IMG/VR virus record: IMGVR_UViG_3300030118_002976
Span: 1 to 37,939 of that record
Origin: a virus
Length of the DNA stretch: 37,939 bases
Direction: 5' to 3' (one strand)
How positions within the stretch are numbered: position 1 is the stretch's first letter; the number at the start of each line of letters is the position of its first letter. Both the position numbers and the translations under genes were made by a program. Shown piece by piece: positions 7,196 through 37,939 of the stretch. The notes under the pieces are model-generated. The model did no database searches, was not told where the DNA came from, and was given only the letters and a program-made list of their open reading frames with translations.

Positions 7196-8533
7196 GTGCG
7201 ATACATCAGCCTGTTTAGCGGAATCGAAGCGGCCACCGTTGCTTGGCATGGTATGGGTTGGAATCCTGTTGCCTTTGCTGACATTGATGAGTTTCCTAGT
7301 GAAGTGTTGCGGCAGCATTATTCACAAGTGCCTAACCTGGGAGATGTAACTGAGGTAGATTGGGATGAGTATAGAGGAAAAGCAGACTTGGTTGTCGGAG
7401 GAAGCCCTTGCCAGTCTTTCTCCATCGCAGGTAAAAGACTTGGATTGGATGACCCACGTGGCAACTTGGCCTTACACTATCTCAAAGTTGTTAGCGCAGT
7501 TCGACCAAGGTGGTTCATCTACGAAAATGTCGTTGGATTATTGTCGAGTGACGAAGGAAGGGATTTTGCAGCCTTTCTCAAAGAAGTGGAAAACATCGGG
7601 TATGGGTTCGCATACCGAGTTCTTGACGCTCAATTCTTCGGAATCCCCCAACGACGCAGAAGATTGTTTGTTGTCGGATGTGCTGATGGGGATTGGAGAA
7701 GTGCAGCAGCGATACTATTTGAGTCCGGCAGCATCGGCAGGTCTACTAAGAAGGTCAATAAAAAGGGGGAAAAATTTGCCACCTTTGCTCAAGAAGGCGT
7801 TAGAGGAACAAGCGAAACTGATGACGGAAGAGGAATAAAGCATTGTTCCGATGTCGCACCAACTCTAACTCATTCTGGTCCACCATACTCACGAACAGGA
7901 CAGACTACCGAAGATGAGGCTATGGTAGTAATGGATGTTACTATACCCATTCACGACAAAGCCACTAGATACAAAGGTGGTGGAGATACTAGAAACGATG
8001 ACGGGGCAGGTAATGGGTTCGGCGTTGCAGATGAAGATTCACCGATGTATACGTTAGATACAAGTTGTAATCATGCGGTATATCAACAATCTGGAATTGA
8101 TTTATTTAATCAAGAAATCACAGGAGATAAGCATTGCCCACTAAGAACTGCGACTGGTCATGGCGCACCCGCAGTAATGGAGAGTAAAACCGTTGCACCC
8201 ACATTAACAGCATCTAATGACCCAAGCCGTAGCCCACAGTCTGCGGAGATAACTAATCAAGTAAAAGCCATTTTTGAAACTACATCCTTGGTAAGAAGAT
8301 TGACTCCTGTGGAATGCGAAAGGTTACAAGGATTTCCAGATAATTATACACAAATAGAATGGAAAGGCAAACCAAAAGAAAAATGCCCTGATGCACCTAG
8401 ATACAAGGCACTTGGCAATAGTATGCCTGTTCCTGTTATGAGATGGATAGGAGAGAGGATTGATTTACTTAACCTCTTAGACCTATCTCAACGAGATTCT
8501 TCCAAGGTATCTAAACAAACTACATTATGGTGA
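7196..8533 (+). CDS. dcm: DNA (cytosine-5) methyltransferase
   Basis: GTG start after GGAGGGG (7182-7188). The ordered C5-methyltransferase motifs are all present: SLFSGIEAA at about residue 5 (AdoMet binding), GGSPCQSFS at about 68-76 with the catalytic Cys, ENVVGL at about 109, QRRRR at about 152, then RRLTPVECERLQGFPDNY at about 367 and ALGNSM at about 405. A long low-conservation stretch (about 180-350) between the catalytic part and the C-terminal motifs holds the target-recognition region; it is typical of phage enzymes of this type. No cognate restriction enzyme is visible, so it probably protects the viral genome from host restriction or marks viral DNA. A second complete reading frame is nested within its first half. 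Confidence 0.93.
   Translation: MRYISLFSGIEAATVAWHGMGWNPVAFADIDEFPSEVLRQHYSQVPNLGDVTEVDWDEYRGKADLVVGGSPCQSFSIAGKRLGLDDPRGNLALHYLKVVSAVRPRWFIYENVVGLLSSDEGRDFAAFLKEVENIGYGFAYRVLDAQFFGIPQRRRRLFVVGCADGDWRSAAAILFESGSIGRSTKKVNKKGEKFATFAQEGVRGTSETDDGRGIKHCSDVAPTLTHSGPPYSRTGQTTEDEAMVVMDVTIPIHDKATRYKGGGDTRNDDGAGNGFGVADEDSPMYTLDTSCNHAVYQQSGIDLFNQEITGDKHCPLRTATGHGAPAVMESKTVAPTLTASNDPSRSPQSAEITNQVKAIFETTSLVRRLTPVECERLQGFPDNYTQIEWKGKPKEKCPDAPRYKALGNSMPVPVMRWIGERIDLLNLLDLSQRDSSKVSKQTTLW
7365..7838 (+). CDS. Nested +1-frame ORF inside dcm, resembling a recurrent phage ORF (157 aa)
   Basis: An ATG-initiated frame of 157 codons lies wholly inside the methyltransferase gene, offset by one base. The protein has distinctive segments: SLSPSQVKDLDWMT (about 18-31), a mid-part GMGSHTEFLTLNSSE (about 78-92), and QQRYYLSPAASAGLLRRSIK (about 114-133) followed by RGKNLPPLLKKALEE. 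From memory, proteins with this plan ('SLSP..vkDL.WMT', 'QRYYLS..ACaGILRRA..RGK.LP') are frequently predicted in phage genomes beside or within cytosine methyltransferase genes. Whether they are expressed, or are carried passively by conservation of the methyltransferase, is not settled by sequence. There is no strong ribosome binding site at 7365. Confidence 0.4.
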   Translation: MSIEEKQTWLSEEALASLSPSQVKDLDWMTHVATWPYTISKLLAQFDQGGSSTKMSLDYCRVTKEGILQPFSKKWKTSGMGSHTEFLTLNSSESPNDAEDCLLSDVLMGIGEVQQRYYLSPAASAGLLRRSIKRGKNLPPLLKKALEEQAKLMTEEE

Positions 8534-13090: not shown

Positions 13091-13270
13091 ATGAAGAACT
13101 ACAAAGATAAGGTCTTACAGACCTGCAAAAATTGTTCTGCGAATGTCTTAGCAATTAGGATAAACGGCTTTTATGCGGGAAGTCGTGATAGAATCTTTTT
13201 ATGGGAATGTCCTATCTGCGGTTCAATATGGCGAAAGCCTAGACCTGTGGTGAAAGAGGATGTTTTGTGA
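13091..13270 (+). CDS. Small zinc-ribbon protein (59 aa)
   Basis: The start is ATG 13091: GGTGA at 13082-13086 stands four bases upstream, overlapping the stop of the helicase-like gene. CKNC at about residues 11-14 and CPIC at about 40-43 form a classical four-cysteine zinc ribbon around a basic strand (NVLAIRINGF) and an aromatic strand (IFLWEC). Such ribbons are common in transcription and replication accessory proteins. The short C-terminus is basic. It overlaps the next gene by 11 bases. Confidence 0.65.
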   Translation: MKNYKDKVLQTCKNCSANVLAIRINGFYAGSRDRIFLWECPICGSIWRKPRPVVKEDVL

Positions 13271-13790
13271 TTGTGATACTTGTATTCTCTTAACAAAGGC
13301 AGTAATGAGGCGAGAAAAGAATCCATCTCCAGATGCCAAAGCAGGTAAAATGAGTTGCTTAACTTGTGGAGGCAAAGGTAGTGCAGTTGCTTGTAAGGAT
13401 TGTGGATATACCCAAATGCCAATGGGCAAGTTTAGAGTATCGAAACCAAGCACAAGTCAAAGGAATCCAACATTTGGCAAGAGTGAGGAATTGTTAGTGT
13501 CTGTATTACTCAAGGGAAAGAAAAAGTCCAAGCCGTTTCATGGCTACAATCCAAATAGACATAGCCGTAAAGGTGGACTAAATGCAAAAGGAAGAGCCAA
13601 ATTCAAAAGAGAAACAGGGGCTAATCTCAAGCCACCTGTCACCACAAAACCAAGCAAACTAAAGCCTGGCTCTAAGAAAGCCAAGAGGCGTAAATCATTC
13701 TGTGCAAGAATGAGTGGAGTAAAAGGACCGACCAGTAAAGGCGGTAAATTAACACCGAAAGGTGCAGCATTGAAAAGGTGGAACTGCTAA
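13260..13790 (+). CDS. Basic zinc-binding protein with a recurrent viral C-terminal module (176 aa)
   Basis: ATG 13260 with GGTGA upstream. The N-terminal third carries cysteines in a DnaJ-like zinc arrangement (CDCDTC, then CLTCGG and CKDCGY). The remainder is very basic: KGGLNAKGRAKFKRETGANL (about 107-126), KPGSKKAKRRKSFCARMSGV (about 138-157), and a final TPKGAALKRWNC. I recall this two-part C-terminal signature ('KGRA.yKRetGa.LKpPv' and 'KRRKSFCARMsG...ALrkWNC') from many phage and virus proteins of unknown function, some labelled DUF6321; that label needs a database check. The strong positive charge suggests nucleic-acid binding or a virion-internal protein. It opens the run of small genes that ends the plus block. 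Confidence 0.7.
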   Translation: MFCDCDTCILLTKAVMRREKNPSPDAKAGKMSCLTCGGKGSAVACKDCGYTQMPMGKFRVSKPSTSQRNPTFGKSEELLVSVLLKGKKKSKPFHGYNPNRHSRKGGLNAKGRAKFKRETGANLKPPVTTKPSKLKPGSKKAKRRKSFCARMSGVKGPTSKGGKLTPKGAALKRWNC

Positions 13791-14005
13791 TGGATAAAAT
13801 ATTTGATGCTACTTGGAACTTGATGAAAGAGGACATCATCTCTATGTCCGATATAGAAATGATGGTAAAAGAAGTGCATGACCTTGTTCAAATCCAAGGC
13901 GCACACCCAATGCAAGCGGCAGCAATGGTAGCCGAAGCAAATTATCCAGACCAAAGAAAATTAGGTAGAACCTTATTCGCAGAATATGTAAAAATGATGA
14001 GTTGA
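13790..14005 (+). CDS. Small FxxAW-motif helical protein (71 aa)
   Basis: ATG 13790 overlaps the preceding stop by one base and has AAGGTGG upstream. It begins MDKIFDATWNLMKED, a variant of the FxxAWxxxK peptide that also opens four other proteins in this neighbourhood. The rest is helical and methionine-rich (DIEMMVKEVHDLVQIQ, PMQAAAMVAEANYP, LFAEYVKMM). No known fold is apparent. The shared N-terminus suggests a common partner or targeting mechanism. Confidence 0.65.
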   Translation: MDKIFDATWNLMKEDIISMSDIEMMVKEVHDLVQIQGAHPMQAAAMVAEANYPDQRKLGRTLFAEYVKMMS

Positions 14006-14009
14006 TGAT

Positions 14010-14237
14010 ATGACAAGTTTTGAAGAAGCGTGGTATTTGTTAAAAGCAGAAATGAGTGAAAAAGAGCATGAAAAGAAAATTATTTCTTGCTTGAAAAAAA
14101 GAGGCGGTGCGGCTAGTTTAGGTGATTGTGCTAAAGAATGTGGCGTATCGAGTGCTGAGTGCAAAAAAGTAATTGACAGAATGGATAATGTAAAATTCTC
14201 CCCGCATGGCGATGTAGTTTTAATGGAGGGGTTGTGA
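14010..14237 (+). CDS. FxxAW-motif protein with winged-helix domain (75 aa)
   Basis: It starts MTSFEEAWYLLKAEM, the FxxAW peptide. Residues about 20-72 look like a winged helix: helix KKIISCLKKRGG, helix LGDCAKECGV, recognition helix SAECKKVIDRMD, then a short wing (VKFSPHGDVVLMEG). Winged helices of this size usually bind DNA and act as regulators. The N-terminal peptide is thus joined to a domain quite unlike those of its neighbours. The ribosome binding site is weak (GATGAT directly upstream), so coupling to the previous gene (four-base gap) is likely. Confidence 0.65.
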   Translation: MTSFEEAWYLLKAEMSEKEHEKKIISCLKKRGGAASLGDCAKECGVSSAECKKVIDRMDNVKFSPHGDVVLMEGL

Positions 14238-14238
14238 A

Positions 14239-14586
14239 ATGAGCCAAGGAATATTTGATACAGCATGGGATAGCATATTGAAAAACGATATTCGTCTTAC
14301 GCCAATTTATCTTCATTTGATGGATATGGGCATGACAGGCGACCAAATTGAAAACCTAACACTAAGAGAGGTAGAGAAAATTTTAGACGGAGAGGGTGTT
14401 GTAAAATCGGATGATAAAGGTGACAATGCCCCAACTAACCCAAGTCTTTGGGCGCAAGCCAAATCAAAGGCACGTTCTAAATTCAAAGTATATCCTTCTG
14501 CTTATGCTAACGGTTGGGCTGCTAAATGGTATAAATCAAAAGGTGGCGGCTGGAAGAAAAAGAGTAAGAAGGGGAAGAAAAAATGA
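14239..14586 (+). CDS. FxxAW-motif protein with a YPSAYANGWAAKWYK module (115 aa)
   Basis: GGAGGGG at 14225-14231 precedes the ATG. The N-terminus is MSQGIFDTAWDSILKND (the FxxAW peptide), followed by a helical part (LREVEKILDGEG). The C-terminal ~45 residues, from NPSLWAQAKSKARSKFKVYP to AYANGWAAKWYKSKGGGW, form a module I recognise from many virus proteins of unknown function, often as the C-terminal cap of small basic proteins. The tail is a lysine run (KKKSKKGKKK). DNA binding or packaging inside the virion is a reasonable guess; nothing in the sequence proves it. Confidence 0.7.
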   Translation: MSQGIFDTAWDSILKNDIRLTPIYLHLMDMGMTGDQIENLTLREVEKILDGEGVVKSDDKGDNAPTNPSLWAQAKSKARSKFKVYPSAYANGWAAKWYKSKGGGWKKKSKKGKKK

Positions 14587-14975
14587 CCGCTTTCGACACC
14601 GCTTGGAATTTAGTAAAGCATGAGTGTGGAACAAAAGATGAAAAAAAAACCAAAGGCAAATTTGAAAAAATGAAGGGAGTAGATTTTACTTTACCAAGAG
14701 GCGAAATGAAGGTTTTACAGGCCGAAGATAAAGATTACAAAAGAGGCGTTCTTGTAGAACTGTTAAAAGATGGCGGATATGAAGTAGCGTATTGGTATGA
14801 TAAATTCGAGGTATATCCAGTAGAAGTTATAGTTGATGGTAAATCTATAAAGAAAGACGCTAGAAAAGTTATATTGAAATTTCATCCAAAACTAGAAGAG
14901 GCGAGAGGCAAGTCGAAAGCGTTAGTTAGAGAGGCTAAACGCAAATATAAGGAGTCGAAAAAAGATGGTGATTGA
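14583..14975 (+). CDS. FxxAW-motif hypothetical protein (130 aa)
   Basis: The ATG overlaps the preceding stop by four bases (ATGA). It starts MTAFDTAWNLVKHE, the FxxAW peptide, then a Lys-rich linker. Next comes a beta-rich part (VDFTLPRGEMKVLQAE, GVLVELLKDGGYEVAYWYD, KFEVYPVEVIVDG) of about 70 residues that looks like a small barrel. A basic helix ends it (KALVREAKRKYKESKK). A run of nine adenines (14641-14649) encodes part of the linker. The function is unknown. Confidence 0.65.
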   Translation: MTAFDTAWNLVKHECGTKDEKKTKGKFEKMKGVDFTLPRGEMKVLQAEDKDYKRGVLVELLKDGGYEVAYWYDKFEVYPVEVIVDGKSIKKDARKVILKFHPKLEEARGKSKALVREAKRKYKESKKDGD

Positions 14976-15498
14976 CAACCCTTTCTCTAATATCATCGCT
15001 AAAGATTTGAGGCGTTGGTTTAAAGAAAAGTGGGTTGATGTATCAAGAAAAGATAAAGACGGCAAGCATCCTCCTTGTGGTAGAAGCGAGGCAAAGACCG
15101 ATAGTAAAGGCTATCCCAAATGTAGACCATCGAAAAAGGTAAGTGACAAAACTCCAAAGACATCCAGGTCCATGAGCGCAACTGATAAGAAAAAGGCTAC
15201 TAGAAGGAAGCGTTCTAAGCCTCAAGGAGTTGGTGGCAAACCTACAATGGTAAAATCCGACCCATTTGAAGAAGTGTGGGATTCTGTTATCAAAGGCAAG
15301 TTTAGAGGTTATACTCGGTCTAGTATTAGCGAAAGGCCATATCGCCAGTCTAAACACAAAGCGTATGAACTGGCAAGAAAGGTTCAACGAGAGCGAACTA
15401 AAAGACGATACAAAAGAAGCAAAGATAGAGGCGTAGTTAGGCCAAAGATGCGAAGGCAATTGGGTCGAGGTGGCAAGAGAGCCACAACAACGAGATAA
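14965..15498 (+). CDS. Two-module basic protein with an internal FxxAW motif (177 aa)
   Basis: Residues 1-93 hold RRWFKEKWVDVSRKDKDGK, PPCGRSEAK, YPKCRPSKKVSDKTPKTSR and a lysine-rich stretch ending GVGGKPT. This Cys/Lys-rich module ('W.dv......PCGRs....YPkCRPs..v...TPkT') recurs in many tailed-virus proteins of unknown function. At codon 95 an in-frame ATG (15247) opens MVKSDPFEEVWDSVIKGKF, the FxxAW-type peptide, and the last 80 residues are extremely basic (RTKRRYKRSKDRG, RRQLGRGGKR). The layout looks like a fusion of two small genes; the ATG at 15247 could also yield a separate 83-residue product. High charge suggests nucleic-acid binding. It is the last gene of the plus block. Confidence 0.7.
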   Translation: MVIDNPFSNIIAKDLRRWFKEKWVDVSRKDKDGKHPPCGRSEAKTDSKGYPKCRPSKKVSDKTPKTSRSMSATDKKKATRRKRSKPQGVGGKPTMVKSDPFEEVWDSVIKGKFRGYTRSSISERPYRQSKHKAYELARKVQRERTKRRYKRSKDRGVVRPKMRRQLGRGGKRATTTR

Positions 15499-15501
15499 TC
15501 A
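15496..15501. other. Convergent junction: abutting stop codons
   Basis: The TAA of the last plus-strand gene (15496-15498) touches the TGA of the last minus-strand gene (complement of 15499-15501) with no base between. I see no hairpin and no T-run suitable as a bidirectional terminator, so transcripts of the two blocks probably run past each other. Confidence 0.85.
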
Positions 15502-16635
15502 CAAATGGGATGCGTGGATATACTCAACAACGACAAATCCACCACTTACACCAACTGCTGCGGGTGCATTTATTACAATATTACCTGCATTGACAGTATA
15601 GTGTTGAGTTTCAATTAATATGTGTTCAAGACGATAAGATGAATCGTATGCTCTTATTGTAACCAAAGAGGTAGTGCCGTCTGCTTCACTAATCAAAGGC
15701 TTCGCTATGATTTCGTTAGCAGTTCCAAAAGTCAAAGTTAGAGCAGCCGAATATGCGATTGGTGCGGTTTTTGCTGTTCGATGAACAGGTGTGATTTGAT
15801 ATGACCCACCCCCCCCTGCTTGTAATCCAATACCTGCATCGGATTGCCAAAAGAGATGCGATTGGTTTCCCCCTTGAGCATTAGTAATGAATCCCGATGG
15901 CTTACGTGCATATAACAACCCCATGTTTGCTATTGGTAAATTACCCGCATTGAAACCTGCAATGAAATCATTTCTTCTATCAGCATTTGCGCCTCCCGAT
16001 GTTATTGCATTAGAAAGTGCTAACGGACCAGGTCGGATGAAACTACGCTTATCCTCAAGAGACAAGATTACGGGACCTGATGAACCTCTACCTATTCTTG
16101 CCGCAGCCAATACAGTATTTTGTAATACTAAATGATTAGATGGAGATTGAGGGTATAATCCGGCAGCAGTATCTACATAAGAACCATAAACAAAACCGAT
16201 ATTGTTTGGGTTTCTTGGCTCAACATAAACAAGCAATATCGCTTCTTCGGTTGAAGATGAACCATTAGGAATAGGAACGGCGTGATACCCCGTATGGTAA
16301 TTGGTTGGTGCGGTAATATCCATAACTGCCACAGAACCAACAGTATAGAAAATCCCGTCAAGATGGACTGTTCCCGAATCTACATACAGTTGTGATGTGC
16401 TACCTATTGTGCCGTTGGGTCTTACACAACAGTTTCCAGATACTGGATTGTTTCTATCAGCAGAATCATATTGATTTAACGTTGTAGCCAATACGCCGTT
16501 ACCTAGTCCATTCTCAACTGTATTTGTCAATGAAGGGCTAGTTAAGACATCAGTATCTCTCAAGCCATCGCTTTGATATGAGGATGCGCCAGTAGCCGTT
16601 TTTTCGTGACCTTCTGCTAAATTTGTATTTGCCAT
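15499..16635 (-). CDS. Distal tail / tail-fibre protein (378 aa)
   Basis: It lies at the distal end of the tail operon, after the giant fibre genes, where receptor-binding fibres usually sit. It is rich in Gly, Ser, Thr and Asn. About residues 75-200 (LYVDSGTVHLDGIFYTVGSV, EEAILLVYVEPR) read like the beta-rich N-terminal part of phage fibre proteins that link to a baseplate; the rest is short repeated strands and ends VVVEYIHASHL. The start at 16635 overlaps the stop of the upstream gene. A tract of eight Gs (complement of 15809-15816) lies at about codon 275 and could be unstable. There is no catalytic motif. Receptor binding is inferred from position and composition. Confidence 0.6.
   Translation of the reverse strand: MANTNLAEGHEKTATGASSYQSDGLRDTDVLTSPSLTNTVENGLGNGVLATTLNQYDSADRNNPVSGNCCVRPNGTIGSTSQLYVDSGTVHLDGIFYTVGSVAVMDITAPTNYHTGYHAVPIPNGSSSTEEAILLVYVEPRNPNNIGFVYGSYVDTAAGLYPQSPSNHLVLQNTVLAAARIGRGSSGPVILSLEDKRSFIRPGPLALSNAITSGGANADRRNDFIAGFNAGNLPIANMGLLYARKPSGFITNAQGGNQSHLFWQSDAGIGLQAGGGGSYQITPVHRTAKTAPIAYSAALTLTFGTANEIIAKPLISEADGTTSLVTIRAYDSSYRLEHILIETQHYTVNAGNIVINAPAAVGVSGGFVVVEYIHASHL
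15809..15816 (-). repeat. Eight-base poly-C (poly-G on the coding strand) tract in the fibre gene
   Basis: Eight Cs in a row on the plus strand encode a run of glycines within AGGGGSY on the minus strand. It is the longest G/C homopolymer I found in this AT-rich window. Gain or loss of one base would truncate or alter the last ~100 residues of the fibre protein. Confidence 0.8.
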
Positions 16636-16976
16636 TATCTAACCTCCATTAGTATATCTATTCTAACTTCATTACTGGTATTCTTTGTGATAGGCATGAA
16701 TGTTGCTCTAAAAGCAGGGGTATCAAGCGGGTTATCTCCATGCAGAACCACCTCCGATATACTTTGTTCGGTTGATAGTTGTGAATCAAACAAAGCGGTC
16801 ATCGATAAAGTTCGCTCGTCTACTCTTTGTATTTCAACAGACTTACTAAACAAAGGATTGCCGCTTCCCCCATCTCTACTAGATGCTTGAGTATTACCAG
16901 AACCTATTGTCATTTTCTTAATCAGCGTTTGCAGATGGTCGGTCAAGGCTGCTTTTATCGGGTCTAAAACTGGCAT
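16635..16976 (-). CDS. Small baseplate/tail-associated protein (113 aa)
   Basis: A perfect GGAGGTGATT (complement of 16981-16990) precedes the ATG. The N-terminus (PVLDPIKAALTDHLQTLIKK) is a helix, followed by a beta-rich part: FSKSVEIQRVDERTLSMTAL, ISEVVLHGD, AFRATFMPITKNTSNEVRID. Proteins of this size and plan are common between the hub and the fibre genes and may form the joint for fibre attachment. I cannot name a family. Stop and start overlap with the fibre gene downstream, so the two are probably made in a fixed ratio. Confidence 0.55.
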   Translation of the reverse strand: MPVLDPIKAALTDHLQTLIKKMTIGSGNTQASSRDGGSGNPLFSKSVEIQRVDERTLSMTALFDSQLSTEQSISEVVLHGDNPLDTPAFRATFMPITKNTSNEVRIDILMEVR

Positions 16977-16978
16977 AA

Positions 16979-17434
16979 TTAATCACCTCCAACTTCCCCA
17001 TACATTGTATGGTTGCATTTTGGGCAAGCAATTTCTATTGAATAATTGGGCGAGCCTACTGCATCGGAATATTCTCGATTGTAACTTGGTTGTTCAACTA
17101 TTTGATATTGACAATTCTCGCCTGTTAATTCACGACAAGTTGGGTTTAGACCTTCTGCACATCGTTTTGAACAAAACTCATCACTATAAACATCATCGAC
17201 ATTTGTATTAGTTCTGCCACCGCAATTTGCACACTCATGAATTATACCGCCTTCGGAGTATGGTTTTCTATACGCCTCTTCTCGTTGTTGAATCATATCC
17301 GCAATCATAGGGTTGTTCCTCATTGCAGCCCCAAACGCAATAGTTGGATTTGGGTCATTAAGTCGATGAAAATCCTTGTTGGGATTATCGTCATCGTCTT
17401 TAAGAATGTTCCATGCTATTTTGAATGCGCTCAT
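16979..17434 (-). CDS. FxxAW-motif protein with zinc-binding cysteines, in the tail operon (151 aa)
   Basis: It begins MSAFKIAWNILKDDDDN, the same FxxAW peptide found in the small plus-strand genes across the convergent junction. Then follow an Asn/Met-rich linker, CANCGG (about 68-73), FCSKRCAEGL (about 88-97), and near the C-terminus CPKCNHTMYG, which together look like two zinc knuckles. GGTGA (complement of 17438-17442) precedes the ATG, and the ATG overlaps the stop of the giant hub gene. Its place among tail genes is striking for a zinc protein. It may be a minor virion component or an assembly factor. Confidence 0.65.
   Translation of the reverse strand: MSAFKIAWNILKDDDDNPNKDFHRLNDPNPTIAFGAAMRNNPMIADMIQQREEAYRKPYSEGGIIHECANCGGRTNTNVDDVYSDEFCSKRCAEGLNPTCRELTGENCQYQIVEQPSYNREYSDAVGSPNYSIEIACPKCNHTMYGEVGGD
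16981..16990 (-). promoter_or_regulatory. Full-length Shine-Dalgarno sequence
   Basis: Read on the minus strand it is GGAGGTGATT, a complete complement of the 3' end of 16S rRNA (ATCACCTCC), just before the 113-residue gene. It is the strongest ribosome binding site noticed in the window and lies within the 3' end of the upstream gene. Confidence 0.7.
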
Positions 17435-20400
17435 TATTTCACCACATATCGCTTGCTCTTACTCATTCCGATAGGGTATGTCCTTTTATTATCATCTCTA
17501 ACACCTATCTTGCCTAGACCGTTTTTATGCCTTGCACCGATAATGAAACCAGTATTATTCACGCTTCTAATCGTCACTCTATGAACAGATACAATTCCAA
17601 ACGATGTAGATAGTGATAAATCTTCATTTATCTTAAAGTCGTTTGCTGACTTATTCAAACCACTTCTTTTTGTTGTGTCTGTCTTTATGTCTGTCAATAT
17701 CCCTTCTATACCTTTTTCGTATTGAGCGACTATCAAGTTAGTTTTCAGCATGTGATACTGATGTTCCGCTTCAAATACAGCAAACTTGCCTATGACTCCG
17801 TGACTTGGCAGATTAATATCAATAATATCACCTGCATTGATTGATGTTGCGTTTATACAACCTTCGATGTAAATCATCGGCGCACCGTTTTCAGCACGTG
17901 CCAATAATTGTTTGGCTAACTTTCTTGCCTCGGAGAGCGATGTAAGACCAGGTATTTCTTGCCTCAATGTTTTGACGAGTCCTTTACCATCTTCACCTGC
18001 AACATTTCTCATCTTTTCAGTATCTTTGATTTTAACATAAACGATTTCATTACCTGCAATTACATCGCCAACTAAAATGACTTCATTAGGAGAATCAAAC
18101 AGTTTGCTAACCTTGATACTTTCTGGTCCGTTCTGTATTCCAATTCTATTGCCAACCTCACTAAACACATCACTTGAATATGTAAGTATTCCATTTCTTT
18201 CAGCAACCAACTGCCTATTATCAAGTTGAGATATATTTCTAATTGCATCCATTGTGTTTATTCCCTTAGATTCACGTGAAACATATTTATTACTATGATT
18301 ATTTACTTGCTTCAAGTATGGATGTGCATTCAATGATGATTTGACCTCATTCGTTTGGTCATCTAAATCATCCGTATTTACTATGCTTATGCCTATGTTT
18401 TTACCAGAAGCGTCATTAAGTAAGTTAGAAACGGCATCAGTAGTTCTCATGCCAATATATCCTACATTAGAAGTTATAACTTCACCAACCGTCATGCCGC
18501 TTGCAGATAACGAATCTTTTGACATATCATTAAATGTTAAAACATTTTTACCCAAATCCTCTCTTAAACTGGCAACATTCCATTTAATGCCATTTTTATC
18601 TTGTATGTAGTTTGGGTGATGCGAAGCCGATAACTTTTGATAATCAAAATAAATTAAATTTCTACCATCTGCGTTCTTAATTAAACCTTCATCTTTGCCA
18701 TCTTCTATGAAAAAGGTGGACTGTTTTATTGGAATAAAATCTAATGGGTCGTATCTAAGCAATCCTCGATAATTGAGTGTGGTCTTGTTCACTTTATCAT
18801 TGACTATATCATAATCATACCATGCTTGGTTTTGTAACTTTGATAGAACTAACGCATTATCTACAAACGATGGAGGGGTTACTGCACATATTTCACTAGA
18901 ACCTCTCAAATCCTTATCACCAAATACTACACTTGTTAAAACTTGATTTGCCAAGTAAAACTCAAGATTCACATAAGATGATACTGGACTAAAAGAAGAG
19001 CCGTCGAATTCAAATAAATTATTATTCGTGACTAAAATCTCATTAGGATTTTGACCTACGGTAGTGTATTCGATGAAACCGTATTTTCCGAACACTATTA
19101 GTTGCCCTGTGTTTGGCAACATAGATGAATCATCAACTTGGTGAACATTTGCCGGTTTTGAAAATGTTATTGTTACAGTAGGAAATTCAGCCATTAATGT
19201 TTTATTGTGTATTTTATTGTAATCGATTGAATGTTTTGAAAAATCCCCAAGAATTGGGTTATTAGTATATCTTATTTCGCTTTCATATAATTTTTCTTGA
19301 CCAGATAAACCATCACTTTGCGAATATCTCGGTGATACATTAGGATTGAAAATACTTTGATTATCGATTCTATTTGCATCGGATTTGAAATGTTGTAGCA
19401 TGTTTGCAGACGGTATTAAGTGATATACAACGTCGTATTCATTTGCATCGGGATAATCAATGTTGAAAATACGCCCACTGTTATTTACAGTAGTGATTGG
19501 TTCTATTGTATTTTCTTGTGAATTGTTAGATTTCAACTCAAATATACCATATCTCTTATCTCTTGTATATGGTTGTTCTGCGATTTGACCTAGAGCCGGA
19601 TTTAATTTGCTTCTAGCACCTAGACACCATCCATCTTGTTGAGATTGTGTAGCGAATCCTGTGAGTTTAAGGGGTCTAACTGGCCTTACAATGTAATCTA
19701 CATGCTTTCGCTTAGGATGAGATGCAAAAGGATAGGGATTGCCGTCAATCTCAACACTCATATCATTTGCATCATCTTCTCTTGTCAAGTATGTTTTTCT
19801 TAGAATATAAACGCCACCCCATGCGGGCAACTCGCTTGCTTGGCGAATAGCCCATATATCTCGACTTCGTTTTAGGTCTGTTCCTACTGTATCAGTTCCT
19901 AATGCTAGAAATGGAGTAGTAAATTGCCCCAAATCAAATGTTGGTTTTCCATCGCCTATGATAAATGAATTAGTCAAATCACTGACACCAACTCCATCCG
20001 TTGTTCGGTTGATTTCAGGGAATTTAGCATGAGCCATATAAGATGGTAATACTGGGAATTGATAACCAAGAATCAAATCACTGTGTAACGACGCTGCTCT
20101 TGTTCCTACAACCGTATAATTGATTTCTTTGTTTTCTTTCTTTTCATTTTCCGTCTGCATTACAATTCCTAGTCTTGGTTGAGCATCCGATTGTATTTGC
20201 CTAACATCCGCCAACTCATGAGTATGCGAAGTTCTTGCTTCTATAATTGTGCCTAAATTTTCAGTTGCTTTCGATAAACTTGTAGAGGGATAATTTAATC
20301 CAAAGCCTGACGGAATAGCATTTGCTACTGAGTGCATATTTGTATGAAAAGCATTACCAGTTAATCTATAATAATCAGTAAGAATTGCATTGCTTATTCT

Positions 20401-23400
20401 AGTAAGCGAATCGGTCAATATGGCACTTGCTGAGTTTTCTTGTTCTGCATAAGCAACTGAGCCTGTATGTTGTGCTAAATCTATAAATGGGTCAAGACCT
20501 TTATTTAGTGGCCTTAATGATGTTTGTCCTAATCTACCCGCATGATTCGCAACGTTTTCAGATATTTCTTGATTATATTTTCTCGCCAAATATGCCTCTA
20601 CTTGCTCAATCTCAGCATTGCTCAAAACTCTATCATATTGTATTATTTCAGCGACATGACCTACAAATGGAAAAGATGCGCTATTTAAAACGCCAACTTG
20701 TTGAAATCCCTCAGTAGATTTGTAGAATGGAACAGTTACAGTTTGTTCCACCTCTCCGTCATGTCTTATTACTTGAGTTGCAGAACCACCTACGCCATCT
20801 CCGCCTCCTAAAGTCAAAGTGATTATATCAACTTGGCTATTGAAAGCACCTATGCTACCTACTGGTGTTTTAGCCTGTCCGAAAAATGTATCTGCCCCCG
20901 CCCAAAACTCCCATCTATCTTCTGAGCCTGTTGTGTTGCCATACAAAATATATCCCGACCTAAAAACCGGAAGTGTATGTCTACTTTCGTAACCTAATTG
21001 ATAATCATTATTATCCGATGTAACAGCCCCTACAAAAAATATCGTGAAATCTTTGGTGTTTAATGCTGAATCAAAAGGCCGATGTAATTTATCGGTTGAT
21101 ACAAATTTAACAGTTGGCATATCATTGAAATTGTTACCTGTTATTGAATACAGGGGCTGACTACTAACTACGCTTTGGCTAAAATCTCTATTGTTGCCTG
21201 ATGAGTCCGGCCATAGTGATATTGGTTCATCATTTCCTAATCCTTCGATAGCATCTGCTTTTAACCATAACACAGGACCTGATATTGGTAATGTTGTAGG
21301 TCGAGTGTCATACACGCCCTGTTCTATGTTACCCGAAGCCATGTGGTAAGGAGACAACATTCCAAATTGTTTCAACTGAACACGATTTCCTATGCCAATA
21401 TCGTCATTTGTAATCTGTTCATTTGTGTTTCTTATATTCCTTTCAAACGGTGTTGCATCAACCGTGAAGTCGTTCGCTATATATCCTATTGGAACTGTCG
21501 TTTCGTGACCTTCTTGCCCTATTGATATTTCATCCCAATCATCCGATGAGATACCAAAGTTTCTTGGTTTGCTAGACATACTATCATGTCTACCTCCATC
21601 AAATCTACCTGCGGTTTGCATAATTCTAATGCTTGTATCGCCATCAAATTCCGTGGGGTCGCCCGCAAGCATGTCAATTGCGCTAGTGCAACCTCTCATC
21701 CCCCACGCTCTTACAGGCAACCTTCTACTAACATCTAATGCTGCTAATGGGTCTAAAATGTAAAACATTCTATCCAGGTCCGTAGAATCGCTATCAATAT
21801 CTATTCCACTTACAACTGCAACGGAGGCATTTGGATTTATTGAATCTCCTATTCCCTCTCCCCTTGAGTATCTCGTATGTCCTTTTGGATTGTATAATTT
21901 TATTGTTCCGTTTGCTTCCCTTATGGTAGTATGGCCCATTAATACTGCGTTTGCCCCTCGCAGACCCCTTGTGCTACCGTGACCTCCGGCGTTTAGTCCA
22001 TTGTAACCATAATTCTGCAACCATTGTGCAATATACATTCTCTCAAACGGTTGGCTGACTTGAGGTGTTTCATTCGCACCTGCACCGTTATACGAGTAAT
22101 TTCTCAGTAATAACCCATTAACTGCGGGGTAGTTTATTGCACGTGGCATACCACTTTCTCTATATCTAAATGTTAAGAATTGTTCACGCATAGTTCCGAA
22201 ATATGCCGGATGGCTATATTCTGCTAACCAATGACATAAGAAAGCATCCGGCGCACCTCCTTGAGATGTTTCAGTATGTTTTATCAAACCAAAATCTACA
22301 TGAGTAGTATTTGTCGTAAAAGATGTTGATGGCACTGTTGCAGATGTGGAGATAGGAACTGCCGCCATGTTCATCAATTCTACATCATGAGTGAATAAAG
22401 GTGGAACAGTTGCTAATTCTGTTGCGACTCTTGGCCGTATGACACCTTCATGATGACCTCTTAGGAAATATATTTGATTACCATTCTCATCCTCTCCAGT
22501 TGCTACATGACTTATTGGTTCTGGTCTGCCCCCCATCTTTAGATATTGATTAATAATAAAACCATTAATCATCATCTCGCTACCAGTATTATATCTTCTA
22601 CCAGATAGAGTCATGCCTCCACGAAGTTCAATTCTTGTAGGATTATCCGTGGCTATCGAAGCATCAGTAACTCCTTGACCCCACGCTACTGTTTCGGATG
22701 CACCCTCTACATTAGTATGCTTTTGCCCTGGGGCAAATAGATAGTCTGCAAAGTCATTATGCACTCTTGAAGTATATGCGCCATCAGCATCAATCATTCT
22801 CTTACCATAAAATTCACTCATAGGTAATCCATCGGATGCAAAAGACCCAGTATCAACTGTGCTACCGCTTGCTTTCATGTCTAAAGTATCTAATTCAAAC
22901 CTAGCATTTGTATTAGTAGCCGCCCCGTTTCCAAAACCGTGATGTTTGTATTCTGTTTCGGCTTCAAACATCAATGAGTAAGAACTGCCATGTGACCTGT
23001 GTAATTGTCTACGCATGAAATTCGGAGTTCCTCGATGTCTCGTAGGAGAAATGAATGAATGTCCTTGTCTACCAAATCTTATTCTGTGGTGTGGTATCTC
23101 GTTTCCAGTAGGAACTCCGTAGTTTGTTTGAGTTAGAACACTGCCCCTCTCAGCATGGTCCGACATACGATGAGATGCAAACAATCTTGTTGTTCCCGAT
23201 GGTATAAATCCACGGCCTAGACCTGCACTTTCATAACCATCAATGTGAACTTTTTCATGATTAGCATTTAAAATTCGATTGAGATGAAATATTAGCATTC
23301 TATCATGGGTATCATATTGTGATGCGCCTTCCGCAGACACTCCGTTGATGGCTTCTAATTCGCCTACATTTCTACTAGATGGCGCAGACAATCCTCCCAT

Positions 23401-25098
23401 TCCCCATGTTTTATTGGAAAAGGCTTGAACTCTATCATGGCCGCTTCTAACAAAGATTCCTCCAGGTATATCTTCCGGTTTAGGCAATTCTAGTCGCAGA
23501 TTTGGCTCTACATTATCGCTCGGTGTTGAAGGCGATAAAACAGCATTTCCAGTTGTAACATCTACTCTTTCTTTTAGATAAGTAAAATCTTTGATTACTG
23601 TGCCAAACGGAGAACCCCCCTTGAAAATGAATTGATTGCCTAAATCATCTGTTACTGATATATCATCAAACACTTTATCTTCATTAGGTATTATTAGCCC
23701 CGTCACTCTTTTTTTATTTGTAACTGCTCTATTTATTCTAAATGGCCTTGCATAGACTTTTGATGAACTATCTTGTAACCCATGTGCAATATTTGCCGCA
23801 GACATAGAGATGTCAGTGATTGTTGAACCGTCTGCACTATTTGGCAAATATGTTCCAACGCTGTTAGATGCAGTTTGTTCTATGGTATATCCATTTTCTA
23901 AACTTATTTTACCATCGACGGCATCGCTTGTATCATTATATATTTCAGTTCCATATTCTAATGGCTGTATTCTTATTTTGTTATTTGAAGATACATCATC
24001 TGCTTGAATCGGTGTCAATGTAGTTATACCTTCAACAGTAGGCGTTTCTACATAGTTATCCGGTGGAGGGCTTTCTTGCATTGCACATGAGTTTAATCCC
24101 TCTATGGAAAATCGATTATACCCTTGTGAACTAAAACCAATTAGCGAGTCTCCCGTAATACCGCTTCTACTTCTACCTCTTGTGCTTGGAATAGACATAT
24201 TCCCTCCATCCATCGGTTTAGCAACTAAGTTGTAAAGACCAATACTGCCCATCCCTTGAACGATAGGACCCATATTAGCACCACACCAATAACCACGTGA
24301 TTGACTTGGTGCTTTTGTATGCCATCCTAAAACAATACTGTGTTTAGGCTCTTCGCCTATTAGTTGAAAATCACTATTTATTACACTACCTGCTGCGACA
24401 GGGGGCAAAGTTGGAAATGAATTGCAGGTTGCTTCAACATAAGTATAGTTATCATCATGACTCCTGTATTTGAGATTTACAAAAGTTGTAGAATCTATGT
24501 CATTATAATCGCCATTCGGAATCGAAGGACTAGCCCCTGCATTCGTAACTCTTAGAGTAAAATTCTTTTTTAGTTCACTTGGAAAACCGTTTTTATTTTG
24601 AGTAGGTAGCCATAATAGTATTTTGGTTGTTGAGATAACCGTTGCTTTGAAAACCTCATATTTTGAAGGTAAGGATTGTCTTACATACTTTGCCTTGAGG
24701 TATTTAGTTAAATCTCTTTCACCTTGCATCTTGATTCTTCGAGAGTTTATTTTTGCAGCAATATATCTAGTTGCTTCTTCTGTTCCTAAATCGTAAGTAT
24801 GATTTGCGCTACCATGACTTGCGGCGGCGGCTTTCAAATCAATCGCTATTACATTTTTTGATTCTGCGATAGATGCAGATGATGCAGCCAAAGGGGTTTT
24901 AATTAAAACAGTTAATCCTTGTCTCCAATCATTCGTGTTGATTCCCATTTGCCAATTATTTATTCCAGTATCTTCATATTCAGTATCTGGATATGTTATG
25001 TGCATGGCAAATATGCCGGACTGAGTGTAACCATTTACATTTGAACCCATTACACGATATTTCGCAGGTTCTATCCTTCGTGTAAATGTTCGACTCAT
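17434..25098 (-). CDS. Giant tail hub/fibre protein with LamG-like domain and hub-like C-terminus (2554 aa)
   Basis: The longest gene in the window. GAGGTGAT stands just before the ATG. Most of it is beta-rich, Asn/Ser/Gly-rich sequence with many aromatics. About residues 1275-1508 form a LamG/concanavalin-like lectin fold: GPVLWLKADAIEG, WPDSSGNNRDF, FTIFFVGAV, and the closing IIQYDRVLSNAEIEQVEAYL. Near the C-terminus (about 2384-2470) the pattern SLSEARKLAKQLLARAENG, IYIEGCINA, AGDIIDINLP, GKFAVFEAEHQYHML matches the last domain of baseplate-hub (gp27/late-control-D/Tal-like) proteins. So the same chain appears to carry both the tail-tip hub and large exposed regions that may touch the host surface. 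The hub call rests on the C-terminal pattern and gene order. Confidence 0.7.
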   Translation of the reverse strand: MSRTFTRRIEPAKYRVMGSNVNGYTQSGIFAMHITYPDTEYEDTGINNWQMGINTNDWRQGLTVLIKTPLAASSASIAESKNVIAIDLKAAAASHGSANHTYDLGTEEATRYIAAKINSRRIKMQGERDLTKYLKAKYVRQSLPSKYEVFKATVISTTKILLWLPTQNKNGFPSELKKNFTLRVTNAGASPSIPNGDYNDIDSTTFVNLKYRSHDDNYTYVEATCNSFPTLPPVAAGSVINSDFQLIGEEPKHSIVLGWHTKAPSQSRGYWCGANMGPIVQGMGSIGLYNLVAKPMDGGNMSIPSTRGRSRSGITGDSLIGFSSQGYNRFSIEGLNSCAMQESPPPDNYVETPTVEGITTLTPIQADDVSSNNKIRIQPLEYGTEIYNDTSDAVDGKISLENGYTIEQTASNSVGTYLPNSADGSTITDISMSAANIAHGLQDSSSKVYARPFRINRAVTNKKRVTGLIIPNEDKVFDDISVTDDLGNQFIFKGGSPFGTVIKDFTYLKERVDVTTGNAVLSPSTPSDNVEPNLRLELPKPEDIPGGIFVRSGHDRVQAFSNKTWGMGGLSAPSSRNVGELEAINGVSAEGASQYDTHDRMLIFHLNRILNANHEKVHIDGYESAGLGRGFIPSGTTRLFASHRMSDHAERGSVLTQTNYGVPTGNEIPHHRIRFGRQGHSFISPTRHRGTPNFMRRQLHRSHGSSYSLMFEAETEYKHHGFGNGAATNTNARFELDTLDMKASGSTVDTGSFASDGLPMSEFYGKRMIDADGAYTSRVHNDFADYLFAPGQKHTNVEGASETVAWGQGVTDASIATDNPTRIELRGGMTLSGRRYNTGSEMMINGFIINQYLKMGGRPEPISHVATGEDENGNQIYFLRGHHEGVIRPRVATELATVPPLFTHDVELMNMAAVPISTSATVPSTSFTTNTTHVDFGLIKHTETSQGGAPDAFLCHWLAEYSHPAYFGTMREQFLTFRYRESGMPRAINYPAVNGLLLRNYSYNGAGANETPQVSQPFERMYIAQWLQNYGYNGLNAGGHGSTRGLRGANAVLMGHTTIREANGTIKLYNPKGHTRYSRGEGIGDSINPNASVAVVSGIDIDSDSTDLDRMFYILDPLAALDVSRRLPVRAWGMRGCTSAIDMLAGDPTEFDGDTSIRIMQTAGRFDGGRHDSMSSKPRNFGISSDDWDEISIGQEGHETTVPIGYIANDFTVDATPFERNIRNTNEQITNDDIGIGNRVQLKQFGMLSPYHMASGNIEQGVYDTRPTTLPISGPVLWLKADAIEGLGNDEPISLWPDSSGNNRDFSQSVVSSQPLYSITGNNFNDMPTVKFVSTDKLHRPFDSALNTKDFTIFFVGAVTSDNNDYQLGYESRHTLPVFRSGYILYGNTTGSEDRWEFWAGADTFFGQAKTPVGSIGAFNSQVDIITLTLGGGDGVGGSATQVIRHDGEVEQTVTVPFYKSTEGFQQVGVLNSASFPFVGHVAEIIQYDRVLSNAEIEQVEAYLARKYNQEISENVANHAGRLGQTSLRPLNKGLDPFIDLAQHTGSVAYAEQENSASAILTDSLTRISNAILTDYYRLTGNAFHTNMHSVANAIPSGFGLNYPSTSLSKATENLGTIIEARTSHTHELADVRQIQSDAQPRLGIVMQTENEKKENKEINYTVVGTRAASLHSDLILGYQFPVLPSYMAHAKFPEINRTTDGVGVSDLTNSFIIGDGKPTFDLGQFTTPFLALGTDTVGTDLKRSRDIWAIRQASELPAWGGVYILRKTYLTREDDANDMSVEIDGNPYPFASHPKRKHVDYIVRPVRPLKLTGFATQSQQDGWCLGARSKLNPALGQIAEQPYTRDKRYGIFELKSNNSQENTIEPITTVNNSGRIFNIDYPDANEYDVVYHLIPSANMLQHFKSDANRIDNQSIFNPNVSPRYSQSDGLSGQEKLYESEIRYTNNPILGDFSKHSIDYNKIHNKTLMAEFPTVTITFSKPANVHQVDDSSMLPNTGQLIVFGKYGFIEYTTVGQNPNEILVTNNNLFEFDGSSFSPVSSYVNLEFYLANQVLTSVVFGDKDLRGSSEICAVTPPSFVDNALVLSKLQNQAWYDYDIVNDKVNKTTLNYRGLLRYDPLDFIPIKQSTFFIEDGKDEGLIKNADGRNLIYFDYQKLSASHHPNYIQDKNGIKWNVASLREDLGKNVLTFNDMSKDSLSASGMTVGEVITSNVGYIGMRTTDAVSNLLNDASGKNIGISIVNTDDLDDQTNEVKSSLNAHPYLKQVNNHSNKYVSRESKGINTMDAIRNISQLDNRQLVAERNGILTYSSDVFSEVGNRIGIQNGPESIKVSKLFDSPNEVILVGDVIAGNEIVYVKIKDTEKMRNVAGEDGKGLVKTLRQEIPGLTSLSEARKLAKQLLARAENGAPMIYIEGCINATSINAGDIIDINLPSHGVIGKFAVFEAEHQYHMLKTNLIVAQYEKGIEGILTDIKTDTTKRSGLNKSANDFKINEDLSLSTSFGIVSVHRVTIRSVNNTGFIIGARHKNGLGKIGVRDDNKRTYPIGMSKSKRYVVK

Positions 25099-34422: not shown

Positions 34423-35871
34423 TCATATCACCCCTCTACTATAATTCCCGCCTCTTCGCTTATTTCTCATAACTTTTGTTACTTCATCGCTTACTGCCTT
34501 AGCAATCTCTTTTGCGTTGCCGCCGCCCTTCACGCTAATTGATATATTGTTAGTAGTGCTTCCACCCATTCCTCCATCAGTTTTTATTGAAACTGGAATT
34601 GTTCTGCCATCAGGCAATGGAACAACCGCCTCAGTTCCGTGTAATGTTACTGGATAACCACTCTTTGGCCCTCTAGCAATACCCCCATCGTTGAATCCTA
34701 AGAATCCACCAATCTTATCAACACCGCCACTAATAAAATCGCCCGCTTTATCAAGGACATTACCTACGCCATCTAATATAGCGGTTATGACATCTAATAT
34801 AGGTTGTAAGAATCCCATAATTTTATCTACAACTCCTTCGATATAGGGAGATACTTTGTCAAACAAAGCCATGATTGCTTTTAGTATCAATCCTATGACT
34901 CCAAGAACTAATTTTAGTATAGGTCCTACTACCTTGAATATAGCCTTTACCAGTCTTATCAACGGCGGGGCAACTGCGGCAACGACCTTTATCCAAACGG
35001 CAATGATAATGCCAAATACATTTACGATTACTCCTAGTATCGTGAGCGCATATTCTATAACAGTAACTGCAAAATCTATTATGCCGCTAGAAAATAAGAA
35101 ATCTACGAATCCACTAATGACATTGCCGATGAAATCTATAATGCCTCCAAATGTAATTCCAACATCATCAATTGCCTTTTTTATAGTTCCAAAAGCCATC
35201 GCTACTAATCCTAATAAAACTCCGAAAGCATCAACGATTCTTTGTAACATACCTGATTCTGCCATTCTTGAAACTATATCTCCTATGCCTTGCAGAACCA
35301 TAGTAATTATCGTAATATACAACGCAAGTATATCGCCAAGTAATGCAAACACCGTTTCTAGCATAGGAATAAATATGCCTGTAACGCCTGAAAAATCTAA
35401 ACTGCCTATCGCAGCACTTAACCCTTCAAGAACGCCCATAAAAGCATCTACAAGACCTCTACCGGCATCCATTACATTGTTGAATGCCCCTACTGCTATT
35501 TCGCCGCCTCCAAATTCTTTTGTGATTAAGAATATGGCTGCGCCCAATAAAGCGAATACCCCCAATATGAATATCATTATTGTGTTAATCTTTCGGAGAA
35601 ACGACAAAAATCCACTAACTGGTTTCCCTAACTTTTTGAATGATTCGCCTAATTTTTCAGTTGTTTTGCCTAAACTATTCATTACATCAGTTGTAGTTTC
35701 GGTTGCATTTTTTGTATCGATATATAATTTGTAGAACGGACCTAATGTCTTGTTGAGTATTTTATATCTTAAATTCAAAAGATTGAGTGACTTGTTTTGA
35801 TTTTTATAAATCGAAGCCATCTTTGCTTGAGATGCAACGAATTTATCCAACTCGGTTATGTCAATCACCAC
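34423..35871 (-). CDS. Tail tape measure protein (482 aa)
   Basis: The GTG start (35871 or 35868) overlaps the stop of the GT chaperone frame. Residues 1-80 are helical with coiled-coil character (NKSLNLLNLRYKILNKTLG). The middle is a succession of long hydrophobic segments (IMIFILGVFALLGAAIFLI near 95, then several more between 150 and 340) that may cross the host membrane on injection. The C-terminal part has the tape-measure hallmark FNDGGIARGP, HGTEAVVPLPDGRTIPV (about 400-430), and a basic end. At about 1.5 angstroms per residue, 482 residues would set a tube of roughly 70 nm, short for so large a set of fibre proteins. Confidence 0.85.
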   Translation of the reverse strand: MVIDITELDKFVASQAKMASIYKNQNKSLNLLNLRYKILNKTLGPFYKLYIDTKNATETTTDVMNSLGKTTEKLGESFKKLGKPVSGFLSFLRKINTIMIFILGVFALLGAAIFLITKEFGGGEIAVGAFNNVMDAGRGLVDAFMGVLEGLSAAIGSLDFSGVTGIFIPMLETVFALLGDILALYITIITMVLQGIGDIVSRMAESGMLQRIVDAFGVLLGLVAMAFGTIKKAIDDVGITFGGIIDFIGNVISGFVDFLFSSGIIDFAVTVIEYALTILGVIVNVFGIIIAVWIKVVAAVAPPLIRLVKAIFKVVGPILKLVLGVIGLILKAIMALFDKVSPYIEGVVDKIMGFLQPILDVITAILDGVGNVLDKAGDFISGGVDKIGGFLGFNDGGIARGPKSGYPVTLHGTEAVVPLPDGRTIPVSIKTDGGMGGSTTNNISISVKGGGNAKEIAKAVSDEVTKVMRNKRRGGNYSRGVI

Positions 35872-36971: not shown

Positions 36972-37939
36972 TCAATAGCCCAAATACACACTGTTCTCTA
37001 CAACTTTTAAGTGGCGAACTATCAATTCCACATCTACAACAACAGCACCTTTACTATCTGGTATTTGGTGGTCTGCCTTCTTTATAGTATAATCTTCTAT
37101 CGTAATTGTAGCATTTTCTCTTGTAGAATTGCTACCTACTTTCTTAAATGTCATTACTATGTCATTGACATTCTCATGGTGTTTTCTTGTCCTCATTTGA
37201 TTCCAAAGTTGGTCATCCTCTATGATGGCACTAAAACTGAAAGTATATTCTCTTTTAGCCTCAGTATAATCCATTGGCATTTGAACTGCGGCTTGTTGAA
37301 CTTGGTCTGTATCTACTGTGTTACCTGCATATCCTCTAATGTAGTGTCGGGTTTCATTTGAATTAGTCAATCCAAAATTTACTTGTGTTGCTCTTAGAAC
37401 AGTTGTTCCAAAAACACTAATGTTCATGTCTTGGAACAGATATGGTTTCTCCCCACCGATAGCAATGCCGCTTACGCTACGATTTATCGCAGTATCTGCA
37501 ATGTCCTCGAACATTCTCTTTGGAGAGCATACACCGGCAGTATCTGTATAGTGCCTACCTGCCTCGTAATCAACTTGTAGTTTGACCTCTCCTTCGGTAT
37601 TTGCACTAAAACCGATTGATTGAACTTTACAACCATTGTAGTATCGTAACAACTGTTCAGTCCCTGGTGAAGCATCATCTCTTCTAAACGATTGCTCAAT
37701 CATAAAAGTGGGCAACGAAGTGTCTCCAAACAAAGTATGCGAAACTCCAAATTTCAATTCTTTTGTGGTGTTGTCAATTGTAGGAGAAAAGATTTGACCA
37801 TAGGACATTCTTTCAACGCCACATGACGATGGATTTGCGAGAGTTCCCATATTATGTGCAAAGAAAAATGGTTCTTCGACATATAAGAAATCGCCTTCAA
37901 TGCCTATTACCCTTCTCAACTCATGCTTTGGTATCTGCC
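36972..37939 (-). CDS. Major tail tube protein (5' end outside the window)
   Basis: The frame is open to the right edge: before the TTG at 37919 it reads QIPKHE with no stop, so the true start lies outside the window and at least 322 residues are visible. The protein is beta-rich with helices placed as in tail tube proteins: FLYVEEPFFFAHNMG, FMIEQSFRRDDASPG, VQSIGFSANTEGEVKLQVDY (the 'e..v..e.d' strand usual for tube subunits), QDMNISVFGTTVLRA. The C-terminal part (about 220-315: REYTFSFSAIIEDDQLWNQM, ATITIEDYTI) repeats the same kind of strands. Its place directly before the chaperones and tape measure fits the tube subunit. Confidence 0.7.
   Translation of the reverse strand, partial: QIPKHELRRVIGIEGDFLYVEEPFFFAHNMGTLANPSSCGVERMSYGQIFSPTIDNTTKELKFGVSHTLFGDTSLPTFMIEQSFRRDDASPGTEQLLRYYNGCKVQSIGFSANTEGEVKLQVDYEAGRHYTDTAGVCSPKRMFEDIADTAINRSVSGIAIGGEKPYLFQDMNISVFGTTVLRATQVNFGLTNSNETRHYIRGYAGNTVDTDQVQQAAVQMPMDYTEAKREYTFSFSAIIEDDQLWNQMRTRKHHENVNDIVMTFKKVGSNSTRENATITIEDYTIKKADHQIPDSKGAVVVDVELIVRHLKVVENSVYLGY

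Follow-up and report, generated by a model that had tools for sequence, protein, structure and literature searches.

A short peptide tag common to otherwise dissimilar proteins of archaeal tailed viruses, a possible address label for virion cargo

We have studied a stretch of viral DNA of 37,939 nucleotides, the IMG/VR record IMGVR_UViG_3300030118_002976, which we will call the window; this 37.9-kb record is probably a fragment. Six of its genes code for proteins which share a peptide of 9–10 residues, called here the tag, and show little similarity outside it in pairwise comparison. A sequence-only reading of the window had pointed out these peptides, and all six were found at the genes which it named: five lie behind start codons and one is internal. 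Five of the genes are on the plus strand. The first one (13790..14005) codes for a protein of 71 amino acids (aa) with the tag FDATWNLMK at 13802-13828; its homologue in a related record (G007, gene at 86033) likewise opens with a variant of the tag. It is followed by a 75-aa protein (14010..14237; FEEAWYLLK, 14019-14045), for which the proposed winged helix corresponds to a weak, sub-threshold similarity (E at least 0.015). The third protein (14239..14586, 115 aa; FDTAWDSILK, 14254-14283) consists of the tag, a linker and a DUF5872-type basic module, also below threshold (E 3e-4); its relatives have this module directly behind the tag, with no linker. The 130-aa protein which comes next (14583..14975; FDTAWNLVK, 14592-14618) belongs to no known family and is 94% identical to a G007 protein (81863); no profile matches the beta barrel attributed to it. 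The gene at 14965..15498 has its tag in an internal position (FEEVWDSVIK, 15265-15294), where it joins two modules: a DUF5872 module (E 3e-11), an assignment which stands, and a basic tail. On the minus strand we find a 151-aa cysteine-rich protein (16979..17434; FKIAWNILK, 17425-17399) with a weak similarity to zinc ribbons (E 0.008); a search for its relatives with back-translated patterns in viral contigs found none. The tagged starts are coupled in an operon. Several of them overlap the preceding stop codon, therefore each tagged protein is a separate cistron of the operon. An untagged DUF6321 protein (13260..13790, plus strand) precedes the cluster, and its stop overlaps the first tagged start (TAATG).

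The tag is a helix motif with the form F-[DE]-x-A-W-x-[LI]-[LMV]-K or F-E-x-A-W-D-S-I-x-K. It has two registers: K is found at +8 after F in most copies and at +9 in the DSIxK form. The profile suggested in the sequence-only reading fits the +9 register and misses the other one. N-terminal copies have the form M-[TS]-A-F-[DE]-x-A-W-x-[LIV]-[LMV]-K, and [AM]-P often comes next; copies inside proteins and at C-termini commonly read [FY]-x-A-S-[ED]-D-[PA]-F-E-x-A-W-D-S-I-x-K, otherwise they have the N-terminal form. A multiple alignment of 76 tagged representatives has the consensus MxAFDxAWxLxK: the W is invariant, F and K are nearly so, while the mean column identity is 5%. Residues F, W and L/M occupy positions i, i+4 and i+7, on the same face of a helix. 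The tag is amphipathic, with a mean hydrophobic moment of 0.53 versus 0.33 for other N-termini, and the predicted structure of one tagged protein has a helix at residues 3–11 ahead of the folded domain (moderate confidence in this part). No description of the motif was found in the literature, in a search which left out most subscription journals.

Related contigs were reached by running a degenerate DNA pattern for the motif on IMG/VR; they have up to 14 N-terminal copies within 11 kb. Our sample is made up of 22 records, on all of which genes were called: the window itself plus 21 IMG/VR records of related archaeal tailed viruses (G-labels). A position matrix of nine columns, seeded from the same proteins by motif only and ignoring position, gives 175 N-terminal, 28 internal and 10 C-terminal matches with a score of at least 12. 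The corresponding numbers are 0/3/0 and 0/4/0 in two shuffled protein sets and 0/2/0 in reversed proteins. No N-terminal copy was found in 1,252 genes from 70 loci of other viruses which share only the DUF5872 module. At the DNA level the pattern TTYGAYNNNGCNTGG has up to 13 copies per record; read backwards, it has 2 in 70 records. A looser definition than the matrix gives 191 N-terminally tagged proteins, up to 19 genes per record; some of these cases, such as G014 13547, are false positives of the loose second register. Once the tag is removed, the 191 proteins form 79 groups at E 1e-3, 48 of them singletons, a count which would drop under profile methods and in which some singletons are false. 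There is thus strong support, far beyond the six original copies, for the idea of a short peptide which has been moved to diverse domains and gives them an address or a docking tag: the motif jumps among about 79 body families with no detectable similarity, it stands far above the shuffled and control background, and no full-length domain is common to the proteins.

Position INDEPENDENCE and swapping characterize the tag, which is found at the N-terminus, in the middle and at the C-terminus of proteins. In about ten of them it is the C-terminal end, for example ...ADPFDYGWAVLKGSQ and ...DDAFTSAWDVVKSR. The exchange of modules is apparent in a slot between a tail protein of about 2500 aa and a 113-aa protein; in the window these flanks are two untagged late proteins on the minus strand, one of 2554 aa in the tail region (17434..25098) and one of 113 aa (16635..16976). 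The slot is empty in some viruses and contains unrelated tagged proteins in others. Its protein is N-tagged in the window, G007, G005, G009 and G082, C-tagged in G001, present as a shortened C-terminal form in G012, and has both an N-terminal and an internal tag in G004. A G004 protein (40147) matches the C-tagged G001 protein in residues 14–148 (62%) and the N-tagged zinc protein of G005 in residues 139–214 (63%); the overlap of both parts is exactly the tag. It is a fusion of a G001-type body, the tag and a G005-type zinc body. Residues 98–177 of the window protein at 14965, from the tag onward, have a 61% match to a separate N-tagged protein of G013. The window is collinear with its nearest relative, G001, except that G001 has one more tagged cistron, with a 54-bp repeat of leader and tag on either side, and one more tagged gene of the methyltransferase family. 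The slot exchange and the fusions at the tag thus indicate that it is a swapping joint as well as a conserved peptide. Some chains have two tags, as if cargo modules had been joined: G007 18509-20038, G005 81377-82570 and G005 88816-92271.

The tag travels with one capsid lineage. Out of 50 tagged records, 42 code for a single capsid family, with 62–100% identity; the remaining eight records are incomplete and may just be missing the capsid gene. Among records picked by the capsid alone, ignoring the tag, G073, G074, G078 and G082 carry tags at the protein level, and G075 has none in 40 kb. HCTV-1 and vir519, with distantly related capsids, have no tag. A peptide FFDTARGVLK near residue 66 of the protein coded after the HCTV-1 portal (L301 9831-12971) lacks the W and was taken as a chance similarity. 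Searched with an exact pattern of the type MTAFDTAW, some 85,000 species genomes of bacteria and archaea gave no convincing N-terminal copy; three exact matches were internal or in a short frame and were rejected as true tags. Since the tag is confined to one capsid lineage and has no convincing N-terminal copy in cellular genomes, its receptor is probably viral and lineage-specific.

One related record, G007 (96.6 kb), codes for terminase, portal, prohead protease (Peptidase_S78, E 3e-10) and capsid. Its capsid and portal have matches in the phage collection only to archaeal viruses, with 33% and 27% identity to Druskaviridae. According to the International Committee on Taxonomy of Viruses, Satyavativiridae, which are viruses of marine Poseidoniales, are similar to Druskaviridae both in their capsid phylogeny and in the order of their genes (PMC13108676). 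From these sequence similarities we infer that the window may belong to a Satyavativiridae-like virus of Poseidoniales. The tag-bearing tailed viruses probably infect marine archaea.

Tagged genes are found mainly in late operons. Counted over the records in which a capsid gene is present, 130 of 144 N-tagged genes share its strand, versus 593 of 892 untagged ones (p=6e-10, with genes treated as independent, which those of related records are not). The late strand of the window was set by its tail genes, which are on the minus strand and code for a tape measure protein (34423..35871) and a tail tube protein (36972..37919); the latter is similar to the one in HCTV-5 and HVTV-1, two haloarchaeal viruses. 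In G007 nearly all genes between 18.5 and 30 kb have the tag; after them, on the same strand, come terminase, portal, protease and capsid, none of which has it. A second tagged cluster comes after the tail genes, and this is the one which the window shows. In the head region a large basic protein of low complexity opens with the tag; it is coded upstream of the terminase in G013 (17270) and G011 (11836), is found also in G003 (21408), and is a candidate for an internal head or core protein. The first G007 cluster also contains an untagged HMGL-like gene (21202-22071, L142:1202-2071; PF00682, E 1e-25), with similar ones in G005, G011 and G013, which is possibly an auxiliary metabolic gene.

Several tagged bodies belong to recognizable enzyme classes. 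The largest family (A2), the YHGT proteins, belongs by motif and predicted fold to the ADP-ribosyltransferase superfamily. In its H-G-T motif H and T are invariant and G is present in most members; KptA/Tpt1 is the nearest relative both by profile (PDB profiles, E 2e-4) and by structure (Foldseek match of the model to KptA, E 2e-4, probability 1.0, TM 0.36–0.40). The same fold is only suggested for family A3, with a weak best match to Tpt1 (Foldseek E 0.4; model pLDDT 69). The second family in size (A5) is GNAT-like: its consensus contains RRRGYAT, which corresponds to motif A (R-x-x-G-x-A), with weak matches to GNAT profiles (E 0.001–0.05) and PDB (E 0.1). A kinase-like reading of family A4 (FVVK..., GDR..N...D.D), made by eye, found no profile support and was dropped. 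Other tagged bodies are D12 adenine methyltransferases, late C5 methyltransferases, GP88, DUF5872 and DUF6321 modules and zinc ribbons. An early cytosine-5 DNA methyltransferase in the window (7196..8533, plus strand) is untagged, while the late ones in its relatives open with the tag or with a worn tag (MSEPLFQEAWSSMLMK, MSEALFNEAFSLMLAK). In a cyanophage context DUF5872 is found among replication genes, where nothing hinted at a place in the virion.

Taken together, a docking site which is viral and lineage-specific, expression mainly late along with the head genes, and effector-like enzymes in the cargo suggest that the tagged proteins are loaded into the head and reach the cell with the DNA. 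On the whole we favour, with moderate confidence, the explanation that the peptide is an amphipathic docking helix which works as an address label for virion cargo, to be loaded into the head and injected. The tagged proteins would be made mostly alongside the head and tail genes. The face of F, W and L/M, together with the K, would bind a component of the viral head, either the inner capsid, the scaffold/core or the protease. The bound proteins, with the tag at either end or between modules, would be enclosed in the prohead and would enter the next cell together with the DNA. There the bodies, among them those with an ADP-ribosyltransferase fold, the acetyltransferase-like ones and the methyltransferases, may affect the host or shield the DNA. 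The DNA coding for the tag would double as a joint for swapping cargo genes. Opinion is evenly balanced on a stronger statement, namely that a position-independent docking code loads 10–20 or more interchangeable effectors per genome for injection and is itself the recombination joint of this arsenal.

Packing into the virion had been suggested before by comparison with the capsid-targeting sequence of phage T4, found in IPI–III: it is also a short N-terminal peptide common to otherwise different proteins (PMC9026906). The ADP-ribosyltransferase Alt is among the internal proteins which T4 packs, and in IPIII a stretch of 10 residues is enough for targeting (PMC9026906). The likeness includes the ADP-ribosyltransferase fold (among packaged proteins in T4, among tagged bodies here, which would be packaged), a prohead protease encoded by the virus and exchangeable cargo sets. 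Gene neighbourhood, restriction to a capsid lineage and enzyme classes all fit. There are also differences: the tag is found in internal and C-terminal positions, a record can have as many as 19 N-tagged genes where T4 has a handful, the viruses are archaeal, and no cleavage site of the T4 type is enriched after the tag. Injected effectors which contain ADP-ribosyltransferase domains are widespread among phages (PMC5512222; PMC9503650), such as the early-acting polyvalent proteins and the effectors of the P1 DarA/DarB type, which are thought to be packaged and injected (PMC5512222). These are single giant polypeptides; in our case there are mostly separate small proteins with a common tag. Encapsulins offer another parallel: short cargo-loading peptides on diverse enzymes recruit them into a shell with the HK97 fold. 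They are typically C-terminal and serve host compartments, whereas the shell would be here the virus head. The encapsulation peptides of bacterial microcompartments are amphipathic helices, at the end of diverse enzymes or between their domains; we know of no such shell in a virus.

Some observations weigh against head loading. The cleavage motif [LI]xE is found after the tag in 52 of 166 proteins, with 45 (31–57) in shuffles, and has no fixed position; this test covers the T4-type site, and cleavage might take place at another one. In the window and in G001 most tagged genes are found at the end of an early-strand operon and not in the late one; in the window they sit just before its convergent end. 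Finally, many tagged bodies have no known fold, so that the label of effector is tentative for most of them.

The early-strand position is also compatible with the main competing explanation, in which the tag docks cargo to a viral hub outside the head interior: the tail or baseplate, a replication/transcription complex or an intracellular virus factory. A position-independent helix suits any docking groove, tail-region genes flank one of the cargo slots, and a virus factory is a place where methyltransferases would be of use as well. However the early replication genes are untagged, the early C5 methyltransferase included, the largest tagged clusters accompany the head genes on the late strand, and the tag keeps to one capsid lineage. 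A hub of this kind appears rather unlikely to us. We give still less weight to an amphipathic helix for targeting to a membrane or to a host protein (for localisation, stability, or as a degradation or chaperone signal), with no role as a virion signal. The hydrophobic moment would agree with it, but the near-invariance of W, F and K is more specific than expected of a membrane helix, and a host receptor should also serve host proteins, yet an exact pattern gave no real N-terminal copy in the cellular genomes.

It might also be the DNA itself which is conserved, as a recombination joint or a translation-start element spread by gene duplication, the peptide having no function. The 54-bp repeat which flanks the extra G001 cistron could be interpreted in this way. 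Codon use is skewed at D, T and A of the tag, so that some copies are related by recent descent. However F, D, A, L and K are encoded by varying synonymous codons; since this is the case for most positions of the tag, it is the peptide which is kept. The tag is also maintained in the middle of proteins and at C-termini. The codon GCC is rare before TGG in the tag, but this rarity is seen before other Trp codons too. We consider a conserved DNA element very improbable. As for chance or a general property of N-terminal helices, which the shortness of the motif might suggest, it is excluded by the absence of N-terminal matches in the shuffled, reversed and control proteins.

If the tag is indeed a label for head cargo, the virion contents of these uncultured viruses could likely be read from sequence alone, and dozens of proteins which probably serve the takeover of marine archaeal hosts, most of them with an unknown fold, could be catalogued at once. 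The T4 idea of an arsenal packaged in the head would be extended to archaeal viruses, on a larger scale, the tag being functional at either end of a protein; a short peptide by which foreign proteins might be put into such capsids would also be at hand. The tag system would be a direct route to the study of effector swapping by viruses.

Some other features of the window should be mentioned. Comparison with annotated phage records gave no match for the protein at 14583, nor for the tagged ADP-ribosyltransferase proteins; the early primase of the window has no match in phage records either. The window lacks the palindromes GATC, CGCG and CCSGG completely, where 133, 53 and 20 copies are expected from base composition. 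Nearly every one of about 30 records lacks either CCWGG or CCSGG entirely, but not both of them. These absences suggest a strong restriction pressure, which differs among the viruses.

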